Assembly (NCBI GenBank): GCA_003456095.1
Contig: DMPF01000186.1
Location: 1-8,696, forward strand
Reading direction: 5' to 3'
Length of the DNA stretch: 8,696 bases
Origin: Bacillota bacterium
GTDB taxonomy: Bacteria > Bacillota > Dethiobacteria > DTU022 > UBA8154
Both the position numbers and the translations under genes were made by a program. How positions within the stretch are numbered: position 1 is the stretch's first letter; every line of letters starts with the position of its first letter. Of the stretch, positions 1,653 to 8,696 are shown piece after piece. Below the pieces are notes generated by a model. That model saw nothing but the letters and a program-made list of their open reading frames with translations, searched no databases and was not told the DNA's origin.

Positions 1653-2210
1653 TTGTTGTCTGTGATATTGATACGCATTGGCGAAAAGATCATCAGTCGG
1701 GCTAAAATTGAAGATGCCTTACAGCAGATCCTGGAGCTGCGGGCTGCCGGTTTTTCCCAGCAGGAGGTGGCCGGCCGGCTTGGCCTGGACCGAACTTTTA
1801 TCTCCCGCCTGGAAACCCTGGGAGAGGTGCGCAAAGGAAAACGACTGGCGGTGATTGGTTTTCCCCTGCGTAACAAAGAAGAAATTGGCGCTGTCGCTGG
1901 AAGCAGGGGTGTGGAGTTTACCTGGCTGATGGATGAAAAGGAGCGCTGGGAGCTGGTACGGGGACAAAGCGCCATTGACTTTTTTAATCTGGTTATGGAA
2001 AAAATTACAGTATTGCAGCATTTCGACGTAATAATTATCATTGGCTCGCGCAAATGGTTTAAAATTGCCGAGGCTTTGCTGGATGGCCAGGTTTTATTCC
2101 TGGAACTAGGCAGCTCCCCGATTACTGAGGATTGCATTTTAGACCCGCAATGTTTTGCCTCGGTCCTGGACCAGGTTATGGCGCAGACTCCCAGAGATAA
2201 AAATATTTAA
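1653..2210 (+). CDS. HTH regulator with C-terminal alpha/beta domain, first gene of the AAR-like operon
   Basis: This is a 185-residue protein. Residues about 33-55 (GFSQQEVAGRLGLDRTFISR) form a clear helix-turn-helix preceded by a helical segment. Residues about 64-175 look like an alpha/beta domain, with strands such as LAVIGF and FDVIIIIGS, and could bind a ligand or a partner. I do not recognise a named family for this second half. The TTG at 1653 is used because it lies after a purine-rich GAGGCGG; starts at 1656 (TTG) or 1662 (GTG) are also possible, and none has an ideal ribosome binding site. The stop is 20 bp before the next gene, so co-transcription is likely. The simplest role is local control of the two metabolic genes that follow, possibly through the direct repeat at the promoter. 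Confidence 0.78.
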   Translation: MLSVILIRIGEKIISRAKIEDALQQILELRAAGFSQQEVAGRLGLDRTFISRLETLGEVRKGKRLAVIGFPLRNKEEIGAVAGSRGVEFTWLMDEKERWELVRGQSAIDFFNLVMEKITVLQHFDVIIIIGSRKWFKIAEALLDGQVLFLELGSSPITEDCILDPQCFASVLDQVMAQTPRDKNI

Positions 2211-2230
2211 GCAAAAGGAGGTGTCGGCTA

Positions 2231-3127
2231 TTGAAAAAAATAATCAGCATTAGTCTTGGCTCTTCAAAAAGGGATCATATTGCCACCCTGGAATTAATGA
2301 ACCAGTCATTTTCGCTGCAACGCATTGGTACGAATGGGGATCTGCAAAAAATGATCCAACTGATCCGCCGCCATGACGGTACGATAGACGCGTTCGGCCT
2401 GGGGGGCATGGATATCTATATCCAGGCTGTGGACCGCCGCTACACGCTCAGAGATGCACAAAAGGTGGCGGCTGCAGCCAAACTTACCCCCATAGTGGAC
2501 GGAACAGGGCTGAAAAATACCTTGGAACGGCAGGTAGTGCAGTACCTGAAAAAGGAGACCTCCATCCTGGAGGGGAAGAAAAAGGTCCTTATTACATGCG
2601 CCATGGACCGCTTTGGATTGGCCCAGAGTCTTGAGCAGAACGGCTGTGAAATGTCATACGGTGATCTCATTTATATTTTAAACCTGCCGATTCCCCTGAA
2701 ATCCCTGCATACCTTAGCCTTAATCGCCCGCATAGCCGTGCCGGTAATCCGTCTTTTGCCCTTTCGCATGATCTACCCCACGGGAGATAAGCAGGAGGGC
2801 AGCAGACCCCGCCATCCCCGTTTTTTCGCCGGGGCGGACATTATTGCCGGCGACTTTCATTTCATCAGACGTTATATGCCGCTTAATCTCCCGGGAAAGA
2901 TAGTTATCACCAATACGGTGACTGCTGCCGATGTAGAGCTTTTGCGCAATATAGGTGTAAAAACATTAATAACGACAACCCCGGAAATCGAGGGCCGCTC
3001 TTTCGGCACCAACGTTATGGAAGCAGTACTTGTAGCCTATAGCGGCAGCAAAAAAGAGCTGGAAGCACAGGAATATGATTACTTATTGAAAGAACTTGAT
3101 TTCAAGCCGCGCATTCTAGACTTATAA
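2231..3127 (+). CDS. Conserved-looking protein of unknown function, partner of the AAR-like reductase
   Basis: This 298-residue protein has a TTG start after a perfect AGGAGGTG (2216-2223) at 7 bp. I do not recognise the family. It opens with a beta strand and SLGSSKRDH (8-16), has a glycine-rich FGLGGMDIYI segment (55-64) and DGTGLKN (90-96), then a second possible nucleotide-binding-like unit starting GKKKVLITCAMDRFG (115-129). Residues about 157-178 are hydrophobic (ALIARIAVPVIRLLPF) and could be a buried or membrane-contacting helix. The C-terminal part contains strands KIVITNTV and TLITTTPEIEGRSFG. No signal peptide is seen. It sits between its likely regulator and the AAR-like gene with short gaps, so a shared pathway is probable. 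It could be an oxidoreductase, or a substrate-handling or regulatory partner; no function is assigned. Confidence 0.85.
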   Translation: MKKIISISLGSSKRDHIATLELMNQSFSLQRIGTNGDLQKMIQLIRRHDGTIDAFGLGGMDIYIQAVDRRYTLRDAQKVAAAAKLTPIVDGTGLKNTLERQVVQYLKKETSILEGKKKVLITCAMDRFGLAQSLEQNGCEMSYGDLIYILNLPIPLKSLHTLALIARIAVPVIRLLPFRMIYPTGDKQEGSRPRHPRFFAGADIIAGDFHFIRRYMPLNLPGKIVITNTVTAADVELLRNIGVKTLITTTPEIEGRSFGTNVMEAVLVAYSGSKKELEAQEYDYLLKELDFKPRILDL

Positions 3128-3160
3128 AATAAATGGGAGGTTGCGGGTAAACCGGATAAC

Positions 3161-4276
3161 ATGACGACAAAAAAACAGGGACCAGTAGATTTTTCCTTTA
3201 TCATTCATCCCTTGAATACGGATGACATTTTCCGGAAATATAAATTTATGCGCCGCTGGCCCGAAAGCCTGGTGAAGAGCATTATGCAAAGAATGCCGCC
3301 GATCTTCACCTCCAGCATAACAGGAATTAAATCCCCATACGGCAGTGTGGAGGGGTGTTTTTACGGTGTAACCCTTACTTCCCGGCAAATGCTGGAGCTG
3401 CCTCCCGAGATAACTATTCGCAAAGTTGTTGCTGCCGGACGCAAGGCAGCACAGCTAGGGGCAAAAATTATCGGGCTGGGTGCTATGACCGCCGTGGTAG
3501 GGGATGGGGGAATTTCTATAGCCCGCAACCTGGATATCGCTGTGACTACGGGCAACAGCTATACGGTTGCTACAGCGCTGCAGGGGACGGAGAAGGCGGC
3601 GGAGCTGATGGGGATCGATCTGGATAGGGCCGAAGTGGCCGTGCTAGGGGCTAGCGGTTCCATTGGCAGCGCATGTGCCCGCATTCTCGCCCGCAAGGTG
3701 AACTATCTGACCCTTATTGCCCGTACTCTGCCGCCCCTGGAGAAGTTGGCGGGCAGGATCAAACAGGACTGCGGCCTGGCGGCTAAGGTTACCGCCAATG
3801 TGAAGGATGCGGTGCGCCGCGCTGATGTAATTGTCGCCGTTTCCAGCGCCGCCGATGCCCTCATTGAGCCGGAGGATTTAAAACCGGGTGCTGTGGTTTG
3901 CGATGTGGCCCGCCCACGCGATGTTTCTGCCAGGGTGGCGGAGATGCGCAACGACGTGCTGGTGATCGAGGGGGGAGCGGTGGAGGTTCCGGGAGATGTA
4001 AACTTTAACTTTAATTTTGGCTTTCCACCAAAACTGGCCTACGCCTGCATGGCTGAAACCATGATTCTGGCACTGGAAAAACGTTATGAAAACTTCTCCC
4101 TGGGGCGGGACATGACAGTGGAGCAGATAGATGAGATTTCCGCCCTGGCGGCGAAGCACGGTTTCAAACTGGCTGGTTTCCGCAGTTTCGAGCGGGCCTT
4201 AACTGAAGATTTAATCGACGAAATCAGGGATCGGGCGCGACATAAGCGAGCAGCCCTGGAGACAAAAAAAGTTTAA
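3161..4276 (+). CDS. Long-chain acyl-ACP reductase (AAR)-like NAD(P)-dependent oxidoreductase
   Basis: This 371-residue protein aligns over its whole length with cyanobacterial AAR, which reduces acyl-ACP or acyl-CoA to fatty aldehyde. Shared blocks from memory of the Synechococcus enzyme are FSFIIHPLN near the N-terminus, ESCF/EGCF (64-67), GLGAMT (105-110), TTGNSYT (129-135), the Rossmann loop GASGSIG (163-169), EGGAVEVPGDV (270-280), YACMAETMIL (294-303), and NFSLGRD plus KHGF toward the end. Cys296 falls at the position of the catalytic Cys294 of Synechococcus AAR. About 30 residues extend beyond the cyanobacterial C-terminus. The ATG at 3161 fits the alignment, but its ribosome binding site is poor: the GGGAGG lies 20 bp upstream, and no alternative start is in frame. 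The frame may instead be labelled as a shikimate/quinate dehydrogenase-like protein because of the shared fold. Substrate is unproven; an acyl thioester to aldehyde reaction is my inference. Confidence 0.85.
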   Translation: MTTKKQGPVDFSFIIHPLNTDDIFRKYKFMRRWPESLVKSIMQRMPPIFTSSITGIKSPYGSVEGCFYGVTLTSRQMLELPPEITIRKVVAAGRKAAQLGAKIIGLGAMTAVVGDGGISIARNLDIAVTTGNSYTVATALQGTEKAAELMGIDLDRAEVAVLGASGSIGSACARILARKVNYLTLIARTLPPLEKLAGRIKQDCGLAAKVTANVKDAVRRADVIVAVSSAADALIEPEDLKPGAVVCDVARPRDVSARVAEMRNDVLVIEGGAVEVPGDVNFNFNFGFPPKLAYACMAETMILALEKRYENFSLGRDMTVEQIDEISALAAKHGFKLAGFRSFERALTEDLIDEIRDRARHKRAALETKKV

Positions 4277-4407: not shown

Positions 4408-4566
4408 ATGAAAAAAAACTTTAACAGAGCGACCGGCTAGATTCAGTCGGGGCATTCGGGATTCTATGGCAATCTGCTGCAGGAAACGCTGTTGGCCTTT
4501 TTTTTGGGATTTATTGCTTTATTTTTATTAAGGATGGAAGGTGATGCATATCAAAGTGTTGCATAG
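4408..4566 (+). pseudogene. Small membrane protein ORF interrupted by in-frame TAG, probable decarboxylase small subunit
   Basis: A strong GGAGGTGG (4395-4402) lies 5 bp before an ATG at 4408. The frame reads MKKNFNRATG, then TAG at 4438-4440, then continues in the same frame for 41 more codons to a TAG at 4564. The second part has a hydrophobic segment, LLQETLLAFFLGFIALFLLR (about codons 23-42), typical of a single membrane span. It overlaps the start of the next gene by about 23 bp, as expected for a translationally coupled operon. Position and size suit the small membrane-anchored gamma-type subunit of a sodium-pumping decarboxylase, but sequence similarity is not strong enough to prove it. 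The TAG is either a nonsense mutation, a sequencing error or a read-through codon. An eight-T tract at 4498-4505 is also a possible error site. Confidence 0.5.
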
Positions 4567-5017
4567 AGATAAAGCTGCTGGAATTGATGCTGGAACCGAG
4601 CTTGCCGCCGCTATTGCAGCGGTTATCTGCGGCGAAATGGAGGTTGCACCTGCCAAACCTTTCAAAGTATTGCCTGCCGGTAAATTTGTTGAAAATGATG
4701 TTAGCCCCGAGCTTGCCGCCGCTATTGCAGCGGTTATCTGCGGCGAAATGGAGGTTGCACCTGCCAAACCTTTCAAAGTATTGCCTGCCGGTAAAATTGT
4801 TGAAAATGACGTTGGGCCCAAGTTTGCCGCCGCTGTCGCAACAGCTATCTACAGCTATTTGGAAGAGCATGCACCATCATATCAGGCAGGGCGGATAAAA
4901 ATCAATAGTATTCAACCTTCGGCTGTTGTTGCGCAAAGCAACTGGCAGCTTGCTGGTAGAATTAGTTTGTTGGACAGCAGGTCGAACTTTTTAAAGCTGA
5001 GGAGGAGATATGTGTGA
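4544..5017 (+). CDS. Sodium-pump decarboxylase delta/epsilon-like accessory subunit with internal tandem duplication
   Basis: The protein is about 157 residues from ATG 4544; GTG 4541 in the same frame adds one residue. The segments ELAAAIAAVI and KFAAAVATAIYSYLEE, and the C-terminal NWQLAGRISLLDSR, match the pattern of the small soluble delta/epsilon or gamma C-terminal subunits of methylmalonyl-CoA, glutaconyl-CoA or oxaloacetate decarboxylases. In those complexes such subunits hold the carboxyltransferase, the biotin carrier and the membrane pump together. A 37-residue unit occurs twice almost unchanged and a third time, diverged, beginning KFAAAVATA. The third copy, followed by the usual C-terminal tail, looks like the ancestral one. 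The stop overlaps the GTG of the biotin carrier gene by 4 bp. Substrate of the parent enzyme is unknown. Confidence 0.75.
   Translation: MHIKVLHRDKAAGIDAGTELAAAIAAVICGEMEVAPAKPFKVLPAGKFVENDVSPELAAAIAAVICGEMEVAPAKPFKVLPAGKIVENDVGPKFAAAVATAIYSYLEEHAPSYQAGRIKINSIQPSAVVAQSNWQLAGRISLLDSRSNFLKLRRRYV
4598..4870 (+). repeat. 111-bp in-frame tandem repeat within the accessory subunit gene
   Basis: Copy 1 (4598-4708) and copy 2 (4709-4819) differ at only 4 of 111 positions, and the first 87 bases are identical. A third, strongly diverged partial copy starts at 4820 and fades near 4870. The period is a multiple of three, so all frames stay open across the array and produce several spurious ORFs on both strands. 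The near-identity, including silent positions, indicates a recent duplication or ongoing homogenisation by slippage or recombination. Confidence 0.95.
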
Positions 5018-5403
5018 AGAAGTTTAAGGTAACTGTTGATGGGCGTTCTTATTCTGTTGAGGTCGAAGAAATTGGAGCGAGTCAAGCAACGGCGCCTGCG
5101 GCAACTATTACCAGTGCGCCTAACGTTGTGAGTACGCCTGTCCCGGCGGCTCCCATCAAGGAAGATAAACCGGCAGCGGCTGTAAGTGGGATAACCGAGA
5201 GAGCGCCGATGCCGGGCTCAGTGCTGGATATGAAGGTTAAAAAAGGTGATCAAGTTAAAATGGGTGATGTGCTCCTTGTACTTGAAGCGATGAAAATGGA
5301 AAACGAAATAACTGCTTCCCAGGACGGCACAGTCATGGAACTTTTGGTTGGTAATGGTGACACCGTTTCCATTGATGACCCTCTTGTGGTTATATCGCGA
5401 TAG
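5014..5403 (+). CDS. Biotin carboxyl carrier protein (biotin/lipoyl attachment domain), decarboxylase gamma-type subunit
   Basis: This 129-residue protein has three parts: an N-terminal strand segment MKKFKVTVDGRSYSVEVEEI (1-20), a flexible Ala/Pro/Thr-rich linker (about 24-60), and a biotinyl domain (about 63-129). The biotin attachment motif EAMKME is at 91-96 with the acceptor Lys94, 35 residues from the C-terminus as is standard. It would be biotinylated by BirA and would carry CO2 between a carboxyltransferase and a membrane decarboxylase pump. The GTG at 5014 follows GGAGGAG and overlaps the preceding stop by 4 bp, giving translational coupling. Similar carriers serve acetyl-CoA or pyruvate carboxylases, but the linker and the neighbour favour the decarboxylase type. 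No alpha or beta subunit gene follows it. Confidence 0.92.
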   Translation: MKKFKVTVDGRSYSVEVEEIGASQATAPAATITSAPNVVSTPVPAAPIKEDKPAAAVSGITERAPMPGSVLDMKVKKGDQVKMGDVLLVLEAMKMENEITASQDGTVMELLVGNGDTVSIDDPLVVISR

Positions 5404-6996: not shown

Positions 6997-8696
6997 CTAT
7001 TCCTCTTTTATTTTATGATTATTAAAAAGTTCTCCAAAAACATCTCCTAATGTGACTCCCTGATTGTCTTCATTTGGTGTTGGCTGTACGGGAAAATCAC
7101 GGGGAGCAGGACGGGCATCTTTAATGCTGAGGCTAATACGCTTGGCTTCGGTATTCACGTCGATTATTTTAACTTCTATTTCATCCCCCTCCTTAACTAT
7201 TTCAGAAGGATGCTTGACGTGGAAATCTGCCAGTTGTGATATGTGAACCAGACCTTCAACTCCGGGAAGCAGTTCAACAAAAACACCAAAATTTACTATT
7301 CTGGTAACACGTCCCTTTATAATCTCGTTGGCAGCAAATTCCTGTCCTGCCACTGTCCAGGGGTCAGGTTGGGCTTGTCTGATACTAAGACTGATCCGCT
7401 CCCTCTCTGGAATAACCTCCAGGACTTTTACCGGCACCTCTTCGCCTACCTTAAGTACATCACGGGGGTGGCCCACACGCTGCCAGGAAACTTCGGAGAT
7501 ATGCACAAGGCCATCTATATGTCCTACATCGACGAAAGCACCAAAATCCGTCAATCTCTTTACAACACCGCTGATAATATCTCCTTCTTTTATTTTTTCG
7601 ATGGTTTCCTGTTTTTTAGTCTCCAATTCCTTTTCTAGGTATTGCCTGCGAGATAGAATTATTTTATCCCGATCCCGGTTCAATTCCAAAACTTTGAAAG
7701 CAAATATCTCACCGCGGAACTGCGCAAAATCGGGGATATATTTTACATCAACCAGTGAACCGGGCATAAATCCTTCCATGCCGCTGCCCAAATCAATAAT
7801 AATACCGCGCGGAACAACATTTTTCACCAAACCCTGGACATTGGCGCCTATTTTCATCGCTTCCTCAAGTTCTTTCCAGCGCCGCTCACGCTGCAACCGT
7901 TTACGGGAAACAATAATCTTATCATCCTGCTCAACCATCTTTAATATAAGGACATCAATCATATCTCCTATGGTAAATTGTTCCTTTAAAGTTTGTTCAC
8001 CCTCAAGGAATACCTCCCGCCGGGGCAAAGTCGCTTCTGTTTTGTAACCGATATCGATTAAAACCTGATCATCATCGATCAAAAGCACCTTACCGGTAAC
8101 TATATCTCCCAGATGGTATTCCTTAACAGCGTTACCGGAGGAGATCTCTTCCTGAACCTTTTCTTCGGGTTGCTTGTTTTGTTCCTGCTCCATTCTTTCC
8201 ATCTCTTCCATCTTTTCTTTTACCTCCTTGATCGTCCTGTGGGGAGTTGAGGCACCGGCAGTTATCCCCACATTTCTCGCCCATGCCGACCAACTCATCT
8301 CAATCTCAGATACGCCGGTAATCTGGAATGCTTTTGTTATTTCACAACAAACCTGCACCAGCTTTTGGGTATTGGAGCTTCGCTTGTCTCCCACCACAAG
8401 CATCAAGTCCACCTTGGCTGCCAATGCTGTCGCTGCTTCCTGCCGCTGCGTCGTTGCCCTGCAAATGGTTTGGCACACTTTTAAACTCGGGCACCTTTGC
8501 TTGAACGATTCTGCAAGGATATAATATTCTTTTTTCTGTTGGGTGGTTTGTGAAATTAAAACTGATTTTGGGGACAAAGATATATCTTTATATTGCGCTA
8601 TCTCCCCCGGTTCCAGTATTAACGCCCCCGTCTTGCTCCATCCCAAAAGGGCTTGTACTTCAGGATGTTGGCGATCTCCATAAATTATTATATCAT
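6997..8696 (-). CDS. ispH: IspH (HMBPP reductase) fused to ribosomal protein S1-like domains (N-terminus outside window)
   Basis: The last 565 residues are visible and the frame runs off the right edge. Visible residues 1-160 are the C-terminal half or more of IspH, the [4Fe-4S] enzyme that reduces HMBPP to IPP and DMAPP in the MEP isoprenoid pathway. The blocks are GDRQHPEV, then TICRATTQRQ with a cluster-ligand Cys at 78, then VVGDKRSSNT (101-109) and GITAGASTP (143-151). A Glu/Gln/Lys-rich linker (about 158-190) leads to four S1 RNA-binding domains at about 194-265, 281-350, 369-440 and 455-526. The third and fourth carry the typical DFGAFV/NFGVFV and GLVHIS motifs. A short acidic tail follows. 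The arrangement is a known bifunctional protein in Clostridia. The first two cluster cysteines lie outside the window and could not be checked. Confidence 0.95.
   Translation of the reverse strand, partial: DIIIYGDRQHPEVQALLGWSKTGALILEPGEIAQYKDISLSPKSVLISQTTQQKKEYYILAESFKQRCPSLKVCQTICRATTQRQEAATALAAKVDLMLVVGDKRSSNTQKLVQVCCEITKAFQITGVSEIEMSWSAWARNVGITAGASTPHRTIKEVKEKMEEMERMEQEQNKQPEEKVQEEISSGNAVKEYHLGDIVTGKVLLIDDDQVLIDIGYKTEATLPRREVFLEGEQTLKEQFTIGDMIDVLILKMVEQDDKIIVSRKRLQRERRWKELEEAMKIGANVQGLVKNVVPRGIIIDLGSGMEGFMPGSLVDVKYIPDFAQFRGEIFAFKVLELNRDRDKIILSRRQYLEKELETKKQETIEKIKEGDIISGVVKRLTDFGAFVDVGHIDGLVHISEVSWQRVGHPRDVLKVGEEVPVKVLEVIPERERISLSIRQAQPDPWTVAGQEFAANEIIKGRVTRIVNFGVFVELLPGVEGLVHISQLADFHVKHPSEIVKEGDEIEVKIIDVNTEAKRISLSIKDARPAPRDFPVQPTPNEDNQGVTLGDVFGELFNNHKIKEE

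Follow-up and report, generated by a model that had tools for sequence, protein, structure and literature searches.

The 8,696 bp of DNA analyzed here (hereafter, the window), which make up an entire contig (DMPF01000186.1, our C149) of the Bacillota bacterium assembly GCA_003456095.1, a genome at 69% completeness, raise the question of what a relative of acyl-ACP (acyl carrier protein) reductase (AAR), known as an alkane enzyme of cyanobacteria, might do in this phylum, and with which partners. The reductase gene, g3 (positions 3161 to 4276, + strand, 371 aa), follows g1 (1653 to 2210, + strand, 185 aa), likely a helix-turn-helix (HTH) transcriptional regulator, and g2 (2231 to 3127, + strand, 298 aa), a predicted AAR-fold protein without the catalytic Cys or GxGxxG motif of that family. 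As the initial annotation of this DNA had proposed, the trio is real, comprising three open reading frames on the same strand with intergenic gaps of 20 and 33 bp. The g3 product is a predicted NADPH-dependent acyl-thioester (acyl-ACP or acyl-coenzyme A (acyl-CoA)) reductase of the AAR/PigE superfamily, and we give an even chance to the reading that its aldehyde is passed to a class III aminotransferase whose gene lies elsewhere in the genome and which would yield a primary amine.

Gene order and distribution

The genes form a three-gene operon that is spread over many Bacillota. In a set of 80 loci retrieved with g2 as the query, i.e. by similarity to g2 and not at random, g3 lies on the same strand no more than 900 bp downstream of g2 in 67 (13 are without it), g1 lies no more than 400 bp upstream of g2 in 64 (16 without), and most loci share the wider order dusB-g1-g2-g3-greA-lysS. 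Because these loci were picked by similarity, a phylum-wide sample of 299 genomes was added, in which g2 is present in 224 (one match, in G039, being weak at E 1.8e-5), a reductase (E<1e-12) in 194 (188 with g2 and 6 without), and g1 (E<1e-20) in 184, with g2 alongside in 183 of these. The expectation that the three genes co-occur is therefore upheld. Among the best-scoring 120 of the 188 genomes that hold both genes, g3 is immediately 3' of g2 in 117, with a median gap of 41 bp, the two being separated in G097, G104 and G167; in two Armatimonadota loci (L068, L073) the reductase is found elsewhere in the genome, unlinked to g2.

The gene pair g2-g3 is also present in metagenome-assembled genomes labelled Thermaerobacter and Symbiobacterium, which we take to be aerobic or oxygen-tolerant genera, so that the system of an anaerobe, as first described, is not the whole story. 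Contigs carrying g2 also occur under the labels Sumerlaeota (L040) and Heimdallarchaeota (L079); for the former misbinning is possible, because the Bacillota order dusB-g1-g2-g3 is found there. The g3 matches in G041, G085, G188, G197, G238 and G311 contain in-frame stops (TAA/TGA), which may reflect decay, a frameshift or a match overrunning the end of the gene.

The reductase g3

Among PDB sequences, the best match of g3 is PigE (4ppm, E 8.4e-35), and AAR (6jzq) is matched at E 8.6e-27, with residues 48-336 of g3 on 45-335 of AAR. The AAR match had been called 'end to end', which is nearly right, as 289 of 371 residues align, although AAR is not the best match. Of the NCBIfam profiles, PigE scores 218 bits (cut-off 850) and TIGR04058, the cyanobacterial-type AAR family, 136.8 bits (curated cut-off 449.7); g3 is below both cut-offs and is therefore a member of the superfamily that belongs to neither named family. 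Pfam PF01488 is matched at residues 146-264 only, an NAD-binding mid-domain, with no substrate-domain match, and g3 is a single protein in which no transaminase domain is present.

The catalytic features were examined in an alignment of 66 sequences, obtained from 69 same-strand g3 matches (window included) by removing one with an internal stop and two outside 330-430 aa (subsets of the alignments were passed to the tools, namely 56 of 66 sequences for g3, 65 of 81 for g2 and 51 of 61 for g1, the last after exclusion of four sequences with internal stops). Cys296 of g3 aligns with C294 of AAR, as had been noted, and is conserved in 60 of the 66. It had been accepted at the outset that a better match to another family, combined with loss of this cysteine among homologues, would speak against an AAR-like enzyme; the other family, PigE, is indeed the best match, but the cysteine is conserved. 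The dinucleotide-loop motif, GASGSIGS in the window, is almost invariant (G163 in 66, G166 in 64 and G169 in 66 of 66). Furthermore, Arg188 (57/66) and Arg316 (55/66) occupy the positions of AAR R189 and R314, which hold the NADPH phosphate (PMC7089970), and at the position of AAR R193, the third residue of this kind, the window has Pro192 and 57 of the 66 sequences have Lys or Arg. On these sequence features, g3 is predicted to be an acyl-thioester reductase.

All six Cys-less g3 proteins (L014, L019, L021, L045, L050, L060) occupy the usual operon slot. Four of these genomes (L014, L045, L050, L060) encode a Cys-bearing reductase-aminotransferase fusion, and no such fusion was found for L019 and L021. 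In L109, L116 and L120, the slot after g2 holds proteins of 289-344 aa with trace AAR similarity, for which the hhalign probabilities are 46 (g3) and 64 (Cys-less g3), compared with at most 0.2 for g2 and three control families; on this weak signal, these are perhaps worn-out copies of g3 kept for a non-catalytic role.

The absence of the alkane-forming partner ADO, proposed from the window, also holds in its relatives, with no match to PF11266 in any of 30, the window's own genome (69% complete) included. Of 14 known genomes searched as a control, the same profile matched two, those of Synechococcus elongatus and Caulobacter, one of them above the cut-off.

The partner protein g2

No Pfam family matches g2 above its cut-off. 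Its relatives number 7709 proteins at E<=1e-3 among 8000 candidates scored and, among the matches listed, all those with an NCBI name are called 'quinate 5-dehydrogenase', by automatic annotation. An identity as shikimate/quinate dehydrogenase was rejected, since the shikimate-binding N-terminal domain is lacking and PF01488 is the only one of the domains seen in g3, with neither in g2; from the sequences, the name is misleading. No publication on g2 or the g1-g2-g3 operon was found among open-access PMC papers.

The 'unknown protein' of the initial annotation nevertheless has a recognizable predicted fold. An AAR-type match extends across most of the modelled chain, above unrelated folds, and g2 is accordingly predicted to share the AAR fold without the catalytic Cys, a resemblance visible by fold only. 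The segment TNVME at 260-264 lies opposite ACMAE (a presumed pairing, matched by the helix start and an invariant Glu), and CAMDRFG lies opposite GATGDIG (residue pairing again presumed). Because Asn261 stands at the Cys position and the GxGxxG loop is gone, g2 should be unable to run AAR chemistry. It is conserved like its housekeeping neighbours, with a mean pairwise identity of 58% over 24 loci, compared with 55% for dusB, 64% for lysS and 69% for greA, and has invariant charged residues at D90, K95, E99, R127, D208 and R256.

Link to a class III aminotransferase

A likely partner of the reductase is indicated by genomes with unusual g3 genes. Of the 13 loci in which g2 is not followed by g3, nine (L006, L009-L011, L016-L018, L022, L026) were searched genome-wide; eight have an AAR domain within an open frame of 860-895 aa, and L026 has no match. 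In 20 genomes picked because g3 is absent, divergent or unlinked, frames of the size of an aminotransferase-AAR fusion (860-930 aa) with an AAR domain are present in 13, and the long AAR-domain proteins, where scanned, consist of a class III aminotransferase and an AAR domain. The fusion adjoins g2 in four genomes, in the orders dusB-g1-g2-FUSION-lysS (L141), g2-FUSION (L105), FUSION-g2-g3' (L102) and g1-g2-FUSION (L175), and in L147 the aminotransferase and a canonical reductase are neighbouring, unfused genes. The Cys and GxGxxG are retained, and neither NADPH arginine is present, in 29 of 29 aligned rows of fusions (28 genes, L060 and L102 being the same gene; fusions below 800 aa and L105, L174 and L175 are outside this set), which is consistent with the published description of TamH as NADH-specific (PMC9594044).

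In two congeners of the window genome a separate aminotransferase gene is found in the order yfmF-yfmH-DegV-aminotransferase-proS, and other relatives carry the fusion after yfmH, at this same place. The window's own genome retains the last 32 aminotransferase codons at a contig edge (66% identity), followed by proS (86%), as in the two congeners. The aminotransferase or fusion was seen beside or one gene from yfmH/yfmF, often with proS, in L093, L094, L096-L099, L106, L148, L149, L167, L186 and L187.

This association extends to the phylum sample, which was surveyed with the L147 aminotransferase as query (its own genome is counted among the 96 below). At E<1e-95, fusions included, the aminotransferase is found in 155 of 194 reductase-bearing genomes versus 2 of 105 others; at E<1e-140, a level that selects orthologous, standalone enzymes (frames of 386-541 aa and two longer ones of 626 and 708), the counts are 96 of 194 versus 1 of 105. 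Within the g2-bearing genomes, the figures at E<1e-95 are 153 of 188 with a reductase and 0 of 36 without. The neighbourhood suits hydrophobic chains, although neither nearness was controlled: in 5 of 20 loci (L132, L135, L146, L148, L149; three profile-checked) a gene for DegV (FakB-like, fatty-acid binding) is close to that of the aminotransferase or fusion, with none labelled in 40 further such loci, and in 7 of these 40 the next gene after the aminotransferase or fusion encodes a START/polyketide-cyclase lipid-transport protein (one profile-checked).

A proposed route to primary amines

In the proposed scheme, acyl-ACP (or acyl-CoA) would give up its acyl chain, whose length we infer along with the reductive direction, to Cys296 of g3, from which hydride from NADPH would free it as an aldehyde; the aminotransferase, taking the amino group from glutamate, would then convert the aldehyde to a primary amine, probably a fatty one. 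The g2 protein would fill the place held by ADO in cyanobacteria, as a partner that binds the reductase, its substrate or its product.

A broader form of this reading, which we advance tentatively and consider distinctly less probable than the aldehyde transfer itself, describes a widespread, so far unrecognized pathway of Bacillota to primary fatty amines, in which g2 is an obligate Cys-less AAR-fold subunit that holds or presents the acyl chain for reduction by g3, the product being aminated by a dedicated aminotransferase. The nested distribution, with the aminotransferase within the set of reductase genomes and these within the set of g2 genomes, would arise because g2 is the older core, to which first the reductase and then the aminotransferase were added. 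If the amine reading is true, many anaerobes would make fatty amines, as lipids or metabolites, that have not been sought in lipidomes, and AAR would gain a second role, in amine synthesis, next to a dead-site subunit paired with it. The reach of g2 itself is considerable, at about three quarters of the phylum sample.

Evidence against this route and alternative explanations

Several observations weigh against the amine route. No aminotransferase is found at E<1e-95 in 25 of 138 genomes with a canonical g3, including the window's own genome (where the gene is cut by the contig edge) and the two other members of its family in the sample (G077, G279); this cut-off may miss divergent enzymes, the aminotransferase of the congener G319 scoring only 2.4e-86 against another such query. 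In two genomes (G048, G037) the aminotransferase is present although both g2 and a reductase are absent, g2-g3 is not in view in most of the aminotransferase loci fetched, and Fisher values for the co-occurrence are not readable as probabilities, because the genomes are related and the aminotransferase cut-offs were set after the scores had been seen. As regards g2, Foldseek puts AAR 13th, with a TM-score of 0.46, and sequence homology between g2 and g3 is not significant by BLASTP or hhalign, the latter giving a probability of 0.1 that does not exceed those of control families. The distance correlation of g2 with g3 (0.49) is lower than with lysS (0.92; 24 loci, four of which have a Cys-less g3); being below the values of g2 with housekeeping genes, it lends no support. 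From the literature, it is reported that the TamH reductase did not accept acyl-CoA (PMC9594044) and that antiSMASH detects clusters of the nonribosomal peptide/polyketide type in three thermophiles with the fusion (PMC10829540). The weakest point is that 36 of the 224 genomes with g2, spanning 11 families, have no detectable reductase, so that its job is not limited to serving g3 and some function before or beside the reduction must be supposed.

This last point feeds the alternative that survives best, though it remains unlikely, namely that g2 is an independent housekeeping enzyme and g3 merely rides in the conserved dusB-g1-g2-g3-greA-lysS string. The synteny of the string is strong, locus L125 shows it as dusB-g1-g2-greA-lysS, and the invariant charged residues of g2 would fit a catalytic pocket. 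However, g2 accompanies the reductase in 188 of 194 genomes, even where the two are unlinked (L068, L073, G097, G104, G167), and it is g2 that the fusion adjoins in L102, L105, L141 and L175.

The initial annotation had suggested that the aldehyde is used for plasmalogens or other ether lipids, for alcohols or in membrane repair, which we now regard as improbable. Such a fate would suit a predicted aldehyde maker, and a review reports that bacteria used long-chain aldehydes, not alcohols, for plasmalogens; the same text describes an anaerobic pathway that reduces the diacyl lipid directly (plsA, plsR), for which free aldehyde is unneeded (PMC9702350). Nothing tying g3 to any of these fates turned up (PlsA/PlsR were not searched for), and by fusion, adjacency and profile the partner is an aminotransferase. 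Close to the operon in several lineages, upstream of g1-g2, genes for DUF2229/HGD-D proteins and a BadF ATPase were seen (L003, L009, L019, L050, L176, L177), which count in favour of the plasmalogen alternative and are possibly an ATP-driven reductase tied to the pathway.

About equally improbable is the reverse direction, in which fatty amines or aldehydes, e.g. from lipid turnover, are deaminated and g3 recaptures acyl-ACP or acyl-CoA. Both reactions are reversible in principle, and the DegV neighbours of the FakB kind in 5 of 20 loci would fit such recapture; PigE, however, reportedly works in the reductive direction. So does TamH, among the nearest characterized pairs (PMC9594044). The DegV nearness, moreover, is uncontrolled and did not recur among the labels of the 40 further loci.

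Very improbable, too, is an alkaloid pathway of the prodiginine, tambjamine or koreenceine type, in which the reductase and aminotransferase would release and aminate a peptide or polyketide chain. It is suggested by PigE as the best profile and by the antiSMASH clusters, but clusters of this type are as a rule much less widely distributed and less conserved than the present gene set, and no nonribosomal peptide synthetase (NRPS) or polyketide synthase gene is present in the window, with none noticed among the neighbours scanned, which were not all of them. There is equally little to be said for the pair building the aminoalkyl group of the EF-P modification: the aminotransferase or fusion adjoins, or is one gene from, yfmH/yfmF, named by NCBI as EF-P 5-aminopentanol modification-associated, but yfmH is present in 10 of 10 relatives tested, fusion or not, yfmF-yfmH is absent from view in most of the 40 further loci, and Bacilli, which have the modification, are not known to possess such a reductase. 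In B. subtilis, the modification requires the class III aminotransferase-like GsaB (PMC5885033), and the EF-P paper first proposes a substrate from fatty-acid synthesis and then calls the two pathways independent.

The regulator g1 and upstream DNA

The g1 protein consists of a helix-turn-helix N-terminal half and a conserved alpha/beta C-terminal domain, and is likely an HTH regulator by sequence. Its HTH matches are weak and below the Pfam cut-offs (HTH_31, E 2e-4, 22 bits versus 27), and g2 is present in 183 of 184 genomes that contain it. The AF2 model (pLDDT 86.6) has no Foldseek match in the PDB at E<=0.001, and the start codon is uncertain (TTG 1653, TTG 1656, GTG 1662 or TTG 1668). It probably controls the operon. 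Upstream of g1 on the + strand, a candidate promoter-like TTGTCT-17-TATAAT lies at 1556 to 1584; with 3 such sites in the region and 4.0 expected from shuffles, it represents no excess over chance. Just past it, at 1590 to 1609, a candidate operator may be read from the sequence, comprising TGTTCACA at 1590-1597 and the palindromic TGTGCACA at 1602-1609. A 73-aa XRE-type HTH gene is located further upstream (1213-1434), and in 16 of the 80 loci a relative of this gene precedes g2 on the same strand; its position and size recall B. subtilis YazB.

Other genes in the window

Downstream of the operon, a 158-aa open reading frame (4541-5017) contains 2.2 tandem copies of a 111-bp unit (95% match) and is directly followed by a biotin-carrier protein gene (5014-5403; MmdC-like, 108 bits, below cut-off), the pair looking like a biotin-dependent decarboxylase reduced to its small subunits. 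On the - strand, at 6997-8694, the C-terminal part of IspH (LytB) forms a fusion with ribosomal S1 domains, which are matched in four stretches, and the gene is cut by the contig edge. An Rfam scan of the window gave no match.

Comparison with known systems

Cyanobacterial AAR (6JZQ, 6JZU, 6JZY) shares with g3 the sequence family, the catalytic cysteine (C294/C296), GxGxxG and the arginine pair R189/R314 (R188/R316), and with g2 the predicted fold. The differences are that AAR Y247 is Arg in 59 of 66 g3 sequences; that the ADO-contact residues are partly kept, with Gln replacing R73 both in the window and in the family consensus, R79 variable and Lys or Arg at K80; that g3 reaches 137 of the 450 bits set as the family cut-off and no ADO was found in 30 relatives; and that g2 has neither Cys nor GxGxxG. 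The carmabin terminal reductase domain (TAD; 9E4S, 9E4U, 9E4X, 9E56) is part of an NRPS, whereas the window has no NRPS gene. Quinate/shikimate 5-dehydrogenase resembles g3 in the PF01488 mid-domain and differs in its substrate-binding domain, for which g3 has no match; g2 matches nothing over cut-off.

A further likeness is to the TamH/PigE/KecF-type fusions, PigE being the closest profile to g3 and relatives of the window carrying such a fusion. The window g3, in contrast, is an unfused protein of 371 aa, the presumed aminotransferase being encoded separately, and keeps the NADPH arginines, whereas TamH is NADH-specific; TamH converts the C12 acyl-ACP from TamA to a C12 amine, dodecylamine (PMC9594044). 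PigE has its aminotransferase at the other end (PMC10829540). In the Thermincola ferriacetica fusion Tfer_2018, the aminotransferase accepts linear aldehydes with L-Glu, and the paper describes the other domain as AAR by the authors' inference, with activity unmeasured and no alcohol dehydrogenase activity found (PMC10829540). AAR plus transaminase chemistry is thus already known, and aminotransferase-reductase fusions are in print (PMC10829540); apparently new, as far as seen in the open-access PMC literature, are the operon and its spread, the predicted AAR fold of g2, the pairing of a live-site with a dead-site reductase and the nested aminotransferase link.

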